Positions 53,301 through 54,119 of a stretch of DNA of 64,000 bases are shown here, one piece after another (within the stretch, counting starts at the first letter, position 1; each line of letters begins with the position of its first letter). Both the position numbers and the translations under genes were made by a program. Below the pieces are notes generated by a model, which had not been told where the DNA came from, ran no database searches, and was given only the letters and a program-made list of their open reading frames with translations. The stretch covers positions 12,232,001 to 12,296,000 of the forward strand of contig CM036626.1 of assembly GCA_020746105.1 (NCBI GenBank), written 5' to 3'. Source of the DNA: Trogon surrucura. Lineage: Eukaryota; Chordata; Aves; Trogoniformes; Trogonidae.

Positions 53301-54119
53301 CAACAGATGCCATCAGTGCAGGCCAACGGCAGCAACACCGAAGATGTTTCACCATCAGCGCAAGCTTACAGTAGCAACATTCAACGTGAGCCAGCATCAA
53401 CAGAGGCCCGTGGCAGTGACAATCAAGATGCGTCATCGTCAGCAGAGGATGACAGCAGCGATGATGAAGACACGCTGCCAGCAGCACAGGCTTACGGCTA
53501 CGGTGCTCAAGCTGTGCCGCCGCCGATGCAGGCTTATGGCTACGGTGCTCGAGATGTGCTGTCATCAGTGCAGGCTTACGGCTATAGCCCTCACGATATG
53601 GCATTTCCAGTGCAGGCTTATGGCTACGGCACCCAAGGCGTGCTGCCGCCCATGCATGCCTATGGCTACGGCACACACGGTACGCCTTTTCCAATGCAGG
53701 CTTACGGCTATGGCACTCAAGATGTGCCACCAGGAACGCAGCCCTGTGGCTGCAGCACCCAGGATCTTCCACCGTGCACACAGGCCTGTGGCTGCAGCGC
53801 CCAAAATCTTCCACCGGGAACACACGCCTGTGGCTGCAGTGCCCAAGATGTGCCACCCGGCACACAGGCCTGCGGGTACAGCACCCAAGATCTTCCACCA
53901 GGAACACAGGCCTGTGACTACAGCACCCAAGATCTTCCGCCAGGAACACAGACCTGCAGCTGCAGCACCGAAGATGCGCCACCAGGAACACAGGCCTGTG
54001 GCTGCAGCCCTCAAGATGTGGCCCCGTCAGCTCAGGCCAACAGCAGTGACACTCAGAATCAGGAGCCACTTTACCAAAGTTTAGATGATATGCTGTCTTA
54101 TTACAGACAAGTGACTTGA
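41059..54119 (+). CDS. CCDC174: CCDC174, coiled-coil domain-containing protein 174 (11 coding exons, complete)
   Basis: Exons: 41059-41100, 42438-42542, 43068-43168, 44810-44868, 45907-46087, 48176-48271, 49603-49739, 50126-50220, 50401-50548, 51566-51700, 53122-54119. They join in frame to 2097 nt, 698 residues. All introns are GT-AG; donors of introns 5 (GTTGGT) and 6 (GTGTGG) are weak. Family matches include [10 protein letters not shown] at the N-terminus, [85 protein letters not shown] and the C-terminal [12 protein letters not shown]. Charged, Lys/Glu-rich helices dominate residues 1-350. Known: human CCDC174 is nuclear, associates with the exon-junction helicase EIF4A3, and is mutated in a hypotonia and psychomotor-delay syndrome. 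Odd: the last exon has about 240 residues of tandem repeats, against a short spacer in human (467 residues as I recall). Confidence 0.96.
42009..42021. repeat. Short (AT)n microsatellite in CCDC174 intron 1
   Basis: Six AT units in the AT-rich first intron (41101-42437), which otherwise holds nothing recognisable. Confidence 0.7.
43414..44136 (-). mobile_element. Solo retroviral LTR, antisense in CCDC174 intron 3
   Basis: Read on the minus strand it begins TGTCCTGGTTTGAATGCACC and continues with features of a common bird LTR: a TATA box (TATAAAAAG, 43977-43969), the run 'ccaacaagagtcctgg', and a region rich in ATAC/TATA near its far end. GTCAT occurs directly on both sides (43409-43413 and 44137-44141), a candidate 5-bp target-site duplication giving 723 bp. 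The end at 43414 reads TA instead of the usual CA, so that boundary is less certain. No internal retroviral genes are present. It is opposite in orientation to CCDC174, as usual for LTRs tolerated in introns. Confidence 0.75.
46993..47291 (+). mobile_element. CR1 3' fragment in CCDC174 intron 5
   Basis: Contains the CR1 C-terminal coding and 3' sequence (acagggcaaggggaaatggt, aagaaattcttcag, agagtggtgagactctggaa, gaggtcccatccaacc) and ends near ccattctgtgatatcg. A 63-codon frame remnant (47017-47208) encodes [23 protein letters not shown] CR1 sequence. It is in the same orientation as the gene, within the intron 46088-48175, and diverged. Confidence 0.9.
48272..49602. other. CCDC174 intron 6, nothing further seen
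   Basis: AT-rich intron with a small direct repeat of gctcttctgttaaa near 48901-48945. No exon, RNA gene or recognisable transposon. The other CCDC174 introns over 300 bp (1, 2, 7, 9 and 10) are likewise featureless apart from simple repeats. Confidence 0.5.
53319..54062 (+). repeat. CCDC174: In-frame 42-bp minisatellite encoding 17 copies of a 14-residue repeat in CCDC174
   Basis: Each unit is 14 codons with no insertion or deletion between copies: 17 full units at 53319-54032, then a partial unit ([10 protein letters not shown]). Consensus of the middle units is [14 protein letters not shown]. Units 1-4 are Ser/Asp/Glu-rich (for example [14 protein letters not shown]). Units 5-10 carry YGYG or YGYS at positions 3-6. 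Units 11-17 replace one or both Tyr with Cys ([14 protein letters not shown]) and hold 13 Cys in all; TAC/TAT to TGC/TGT is one base. The array lies between the conserved [11 protein letters not shown] block and the conserved [12 protein letters not shown] end, so it expands what is a short disordered spacer in human. Because the period is divisible by three, several other frames are also open here; they are shadows. Confidence 0.95.

Follow-up and report, generated by a model that had tools for sequence, protein, structure and literature searches.

The last exon of the CCDC174 gene of the trogon Trogon surrucura carries an array of 42-bp tandem units in front of a conserved C-terminus, which raises the questions whether the array is part of the protein, from where it originated and what it might do there. 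The window analysed here is the whole stretch of 64,000 nucleotides in which the gene lies. Human CCDC174 is reported to have 11 exons and 467 amino acids (PMC13270137). The trogon protein is 231 residues longer (698 - 467), in line with the approximately 230 additional residues that a preliminary description of this DNA had attributed to the array.

Table 1. CCDC174 and the parts of its repeat array, in positions of the window.
Feature	Position	Strand	Description
CCDC174 coding gene	41059..54119	+	11 exons, 698 aa; borders set from homology and splice signals
Exons 1-6	41059-41100, 42438-42542, 43068-43168, 44810-44868, 45907-46087, 48176-48271	+	
Exons 7-11	49603-49739, 50126-50220, 50401-50548, 51566-51700, 53122-54119	+	
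Last exon (exon 11)	53122..54119	+	conserved 11-residue stretch, array, conserved tail, stop
N block, units 1-4	53319..53486	+	diverged, polar; unit 4 acidic; present in segmented bird models
Y block, units 5-10	53487..53738	+	consensus QAYGYGxQxVPPxM; 12 Tyr in 84 residues
C block, units 11-17	53739..54032	+	consensus QACGCSxQDVPPGT; 13 Cys in 98 residues
Unit 18, terminal unit	54033..54074	+	likely counterpart of the single segment in other sauropsids
Conserved C-terminal tail	54069..54116	+	16 residues; the first two (LY) are the end of unit 18

The gene is complete, with AG and GT borders at all ten introns and consistent phases; the borders do not derive from transcripts. Its identification as CCDC174 in the preliminary description was borne out by the Pfam matches of the 698-aa protein to PF13300 (DUF4078, 90.2 bits) and PF25449 (CCDC174_GRSR, 62.5 bits), for which the curated cut-offs are 25 and 26. 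Among the best 120 of 678 matches, identity to the listed bird models was 70-95% over 63-100% of the query. The highest identity among the matches listed was to Apaloderma vittatum, also a member of the Trogonidae (95% over 86% of the query), and a Trogon melanurus model was 94% identical over 65%. No PDB relatives were found for the first 418 residues, and no Pfam domain above cut-off was found in the last exon. Two candidates for this exon were rejected: SYG-2 as a PDB relative (E 0.024, noise level) and the Pfam domain AA_permease_N (13.1 bits, below the cut-off of 21). The donor of exon 5 at 46087-46093 (TG/GTTGGT) is apparently weak; mouse CCDC174 itself is reported to support weak 5′ splice sites. 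Elsewhere in the window, an open reading frame of 482 aa (35387-36835, + strand) contains a reverse transcriptase domain (PF00078, 113 bits) and is presumably a fragment of a CR1-type LINE.

The array consists of 18 head-to-tail units of 42 bp, each of 14 codons, at 53319-54074, with zero indels and zero stops. Identity at lag 42 over 53319-54062 is 0.687; codon shuffles gave 0.272 ± 0.017 (maximum of 2000 shuffles 0.328), and the identities at lags 41, 43 and 45 over the same interval are 0.198-0.300. All 18 units outscore 418 of 418 in-frame 42-mers of the upstream coding sequence, and the in-register flanks on both sides do not; the profile for this comparison was built from units 5-17, and units 1-4 and 18 are independent of it. 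The exact period of the preliminary description is thus confirmed at lag 42. Its count of seventeen units is one too low, and its array end at 54062 lies 12 bp short of the end of the last unit. TRF by itself reports just 53487-54017, a call that is too short owing to the divergence of units 1-4 and 18. The codon shuffles and the comparison of frames rule out that the array is a chance or frame artefact.

Between-unit dN/dS in the CCDC174 frame is 0.38 for the Y block, 0.30 for the C block and 0.43 for all 18 units, while the values in the two remaining forward frames are 1.11 and 0.98 for the Y block and 0.90 and 3.09 for the C block. Since pairs of units share history, these values are indications and not formal tests. 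By the sequence tests made, the array is probably coding, and the earlier statement that the frame is kept through all units into the conserved tail agrees with the open frame and the coding substitution pattern. Two further open reading frames run through the array, 53167-54084 (+ strand, 305 aa) and 53269-54147 (- strand, 292 aa); long frames of this kind arise because 42 is a multiple of 3. For the forward one, dN/dS between units is approximately 1.

An intron within the last exon might remove the array, which would then be absent from the mature protein. At least 53 short bird models of 451-490 aa were found (P0070, P0073-P0117, P0119, P0120, P0192, P0196, P0203-P0205), and YGYG is absent from 53 of 53. 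The array also contains a donor-like GTGAG site at 53386, so that splicing inside the exon is conceivable in this species. The junctions of the short models, however, vary from model to model, 21 of the 53 retain a CGC-type unit, and long and short models exist side by side in Corvus moneduloides, Phaethon lepturus and Dromaius novaehollandiae. AGGT is absent from the last exon, and the coding pattern in frame likewise speaks against removal, so we regard this explanation as highly improbable. We infer that the short models are likelier to be the product of introns forced by homology-based gene prediction. Many bird gene models would then silently be without the array, and the same artefact may affect other repeat-bearing genes.

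The distribution of the array was followed with three protein searches (best 120 of 678, 338 and 702 matches). The long bird models are gene models taken from databases, and several represent isoforms of a single species. YxY motifs were counted strictly and only in the linker, from DPEFAPP to the tail; this count replaced a scan that allowed F and included part of the core. All 72 long bird models listed, palaeognaths among them, have 4-6 YxY motifs. The named non-avian amniote models comprise turtles, tuatara, alligator, squamates, marsupials and a bat, and in their linkers the motif is found 0 times in 34 of 35 and once in the remaining one (Varanus). A frameshifted array in relatives, which the preliminary description had named as evidence against its reading, is rare: the conserved tail is reached in frame in 70 of 72 long bird models. 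One exception, the Pterocles gutturalis model P0049, is labelled partial and stops inside the array. In the other, isoform X1 of Anser cygnoides (P0054), the frame shifts towards the end of the C block and the tail is absent, which may be due to an allele or to an error in the assembly or the model; the model of another anatid, Cygnus olor (P0051), is in frame. Among the models found, the array thus appears to be bird-wide and not restricted to trogons. The Pezoporus occidentalis model P0002 extends ten residues past the conserved QVT end, as if the stop codon had been lost; a stop-loss extension of human CCDC174 is reported to be associated with disease (PMC13270137).

The linker has 294 residues in the trogon. 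It has 56 in alligator, 8 of 9 turtles, 2 of 2 tuatara models and 4 of 5 marsupials, 61 in the bat and 60-73 in 15 of 17 squamates, the non-avian range of 56-73 referring to the 31 models that were measurable by pattern. The Tyr fraction of the linker shows no rise (6.1% versus 7.4% in turtles); only the number of Tyr is higher (18 versus 4). Squamate linkers are approximately 15 residues longer than the others (median 71 versus 56), and the best-scoring window of Elgaria is located 15 residues upstream of the segment discussed below as the seed of the array. It is possible that the extra squamate length (P0179 and others) is a single independent duplication. In one search, which listed only proteins of at least about 495 aa, the leading non-birds were Chelydra (496), Sphenodon (495), a shark (498), two frogs (642 and 593) and teleosts. 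At the position of the bird array, CCDC174 of the frog Gastrophryne carolinensis carries a YGYG-type repeat of 10 residues, and that of Pseudophryne corroboree a repeat of 13 residues with one Tyr. The teleost linkers are Pro-rich and 133-206 residues long (27 of 34 named teleosts measurable). As the frog and teleost cases come from a length-selected search, they indicate that repeated expansion is possible at this site and carry no information on its frequency.

Within birds, the array has a common layout. We segmented 43 models, namely that of the window and 42 long bird models out of 72, each from a different species; left out were 21 long models whose array borders were missed by the pattern, and P0048, P0057, P0060, P0065, P0066, P0068, P0071, P0072 and P0118. 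Motif tallies and unit profiles are based on a 47-model set, which includes the misassigned P0072 and repeated species. In the 43 models, four N units are followed by six Y units, then by 1-15 C units and finally by the terminal unit. Since blocks were assigned by array position (units 5-10 as Y), the figure of six Y units is in part a consequence of the assignment, though it is visible by eye. Seven Y-block units in these models have a length other than 14. Of the 251 Y units of 14 residues, 249 have Tyr at position 3 and 237 have it at position 5, while at position 9 no residue exceeds 35%; the Y block as a whole holds 11-13 Tyr in 41 of 43 models. Of the 269 C units, 233 have Cys at position 3 and 201 at position 5. 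Replacing Tyr by Cys takes one transition per codon (TAY to TGY).

The variability of the C block raises the possibility that the array is a near-neutral coding minisatellite, in which slippage and unequal exchange take place in a tolerated linker and selection would act on frame, solubility and disorder only, with no specific function. Identical adjacent units occur in the C block of 13 of 43 models, and C units are more alike within species (0.673) than between species (0.574), which together fits ongoing turnover. In Empidonax traillii, Athene cunicularia and Gallus gallus, one of two conspecific models has exactly one 14-aa unit more in its array than the other (P0038/P0050, P0040/P0047 and P0055/P0057; the Gallus pair differs elsewhere, too). 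Such one-unit differences may be copy-number polymorphism, with alleles, splicing and model errors all possible sources. The arrays of a Cinclus cinclus pair differ by 106 residues, no multiple of 14, which looks more like splicing or a model difference. The long or repetitive linkers of Gastrophryne, Pseudophryne and the 27 measured teleosts would also fit a tolerant site. The Y block, in contrast, argues against a purely neutral array, since its tyrosines are kept at both positions, identical Y neighbours are found in just 1 of 43 models, and the between-unit dN/dS of the two blocks is 0.30-0.38. Altogether, near-neutral turnover without specific function is quite possible.

Compared with Apaloderma, the Y block retains 77 of its 84 residues and all 12 Tyr, and compared with Gallus 42 of 84 residues but 11 of 12 Tyr. 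Identity of the Y block to nine birds is 0.50-0.92, lower than that of the protein body (0.88-0.99), as is expected for a weakly constrained spacer. The nearest relative of a Y unit occupies the same position in 224 of 251 units. Between palaeognaths and neognaths this register is weak (0.573 for the same and 0.521 for different positions); owing to this poor support we rejected the idea that each Y unit has a strict one-to-one orthologue in all birds, and for this comparison we claim the unit number and not the register.

The preliminary description had regarded the array as an inserted domain. To trace its source, a profile of 697 bird units (terminal unit excluded) was slid along 18 non-avian sauropsid proteins, which were picked by hand from 29 named models; the profiles were built from the 47-model set. 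The 14 residues just before QSLDDM ranked first of 442-483 windows in 14 of the 18 proteins. This pre-tail segment, which is single in other sauropsids, ranked second in Carettochelys, third in Elgaria, 14th in Liasis and 163rd in Sphaerodactylus, where it differs or is misplaced; its ranks in two marsupials and the bat were 52, 23 and 22. With other profiles, rank 1 was obtained in 7 (Y units), 13 (C units), 10 (first units) and 12 (second units) of the 18 proteins. The alligator segment ranked first with pooled, Y or C units, 17th with first units and fourth with second units. The seed scores are mostly negative, so that the ranks alone are informative. This suggests that the array is probably an expansion of a native 14-residue segment, with tandem duplication as the simplest origin, and not an insertion.

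We propose that in the stem bird lineage, after the split from crocodilians, the native 42-bp segment before the tail would have been duplicated repeatedly in tandem; that the array is younger than this split rests on one cluster of eight sequences, named after Alligator mississippiensis (P0177). One set of units would have turned tyrosine-rich, giving six YGYG units in near-constant number, and in the other set Tyr would have been replaced by Cys while copies were gained and lost.

The structure of the exon translation was predicted with AlphaFold2 from the exon and 35 homologs (36 sequences). Mean pLDDT over the exon is 43.7, and it is 31-47 in the array, which is therefore probably disordered, although low confidence alone is no proof. 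The tail is predicted to form a helix at residues 320-330 of the exon translation (pLDDT blocks 78-91), and its residues L, D, M, S, Y, Y, Q and T are invariant in the 36 aligned rows. V330 of the exon translation corresponds to V466 of the human protein, the penultimate of 467 residues; the valine is also present in the 467-aa bat protein P0207. The human substitution V466M is reported to disrupt binding to CDC5L with the protein level unchanged (PMC13270137). V233I, in the body of CCDC174 far from the tail, also disrupts it (PMC13270137), so that the tail is not the sole determinant of CDC5L binding. Mouse CCDC174 is reported to bind U1 snRNA and 5′ splice sites in dependence on NRDE2, and to accumulate in nuclear speckles (PMC10351895). 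The preliminary description had called the protein exon-junction-associated. Besides the older link to EIF4A3, the protein is reported to be associated with NRDE2 on U1 snRNA and weak 5′ splice sites, and with PRP19/CDC5L (PMC10351895, PMC13270137).

In this setting, the array might act as an extended flexible tether that carries tyrosine "stickers" at regular intervals. The tether would separate the body of CCDC174 from the C-terminal helix tied to CDC5L of the PRP19 complex, and weak multivalent contacts would enrich CCDC174 locally among splicing factors or in speckles. That the array is disordered in the cell and functions as tether and sticker in birds is what we infer from these data. 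The account as a whole, a bird-specific (as sampled) disordered coding repeat that was duplicated in stem birds and serves as a tether with stickers, is plausible and put forward tentatively. Rather doubtful is its extension, in which the tyrosine-sticker tether would alter the handover of U1-bound weak 5′ splice sites to the PRP19 complex, the frog repeats would be independent and the linker would be a recurrent site for tuning condensates. A GYF-domain ligand consists of PPG followed by a large hydrophobic residue. This motif occurs 0 times in the window and in only 22 of the 47 models, and GYF-domain binding was rejected as a general mechanism.

The stickers could also be read as a condensate domain like those of the FET proteins, in which the YGYG block would drive self-association and recruitment to FUS/EWS/TAF15-like assemblies with U1 snRNP. 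Only 4 of the 84 residues of the Y block are charged, its Tyr content is high (Table 1), and the speckle localization of the mouse protein (PMC10351895) would fit. [S/G]Y[S/G] is reported as the motif of FET domains, with its tyrosines critical for phase separation, and 37 such tyrosines were replaced in one EWS-FLI1 mutant (PMC8284321). The array of the window, however, has 7 [GS]Y[GS] motifs (14 if Ala is allowed before Tyr), the arrays of the 47 models have 4-10, the remaining blocks are Cys-, Pro- or acid-rich, and no RRM is found among the Pfam matches up to E 0.01. Such a domain is unlikely, judged from the sequence. The likeness of the units to FUS and EWS, pointed out in the preliminary description, holds by composition only and for the middle block (6 of 18 units are YGYG); it does not extend to the rest, in which seven units are Cys units.

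The C block, for its part, might be a metal or redox element, in which paired CxC motifs every 14 residues would bind zinc or copper or form disulphides. The density of Cys and its recurrence at positions 3 and 5 of the C units would fit, as would the His that replaces Cys in some units of the parrots Strigops and Pezoporus. Four of five segmented palaeognaths, however, have one C unit only (Eudromia has three), the Cys of the C block are largely lost in Strigops, and no fold is predicted for the block, which makes a role of this kind very improbable.

A splicing factor conserved among vertebrates apparently changed its architecture once, on the bird stem, and kept the change in every long bird model found. 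The locus would be a natural experiment, in which a probably disordered spacer whose origin can be traced, with one steady and one variable block, adjoins a tail relevant to CDC5L binding, and the effect of expanding a disordered region on splicing is directly testable. A literature search, in which most subscription papers and all bioRxiv preprints were outside the scope, found no description of the array in the titles and openings of abstracts that it listed, in keeping with the preliminary description, which knew of none. As far as this search shows, the bird CCDC174 array is undescribed, while disordered coding tandem repeats are known as a kind.

Human and mouse CCDC174 have the same DUF4078 and GRSR domains and 11 exons. 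The bat and marsupial proteins have the conserved 11-residue stretch and the C-terminal tail in common with the protein of the window, and the difference lies in the linker before the tail (294 residues versus 61 in the bat and 56 in four marsupials). The FET proteins FUS, EWSR1 and TAF15 resemble the Y block in their Gly/Ser-flanked Tyr, few charges and role in RNA processing. Unlike FET domains, the array has an exact 14-residue period with Pro/Met-rich spacers, is placed near the C-terminus, is mixed with Cys and acidic blocks and lies in a protein in which no RRM was found. The QPGY domain of SS18 shares with the array a composition of Gln, Pro, Gly and Tyr; to our knowledge it has no exact tandem period, unlike the array. 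The closest parallel in position is CCDC174 of Gastrophryne carolinensis (P0125), with a tandem Tyr/Gly repeat at the same place of the same protein. Its 10-residue unit, HGYGDPASSQ, is unlike the 14-residue unit of birds, and judging from the two units the frog repeat most likely arose independently of the bird array.
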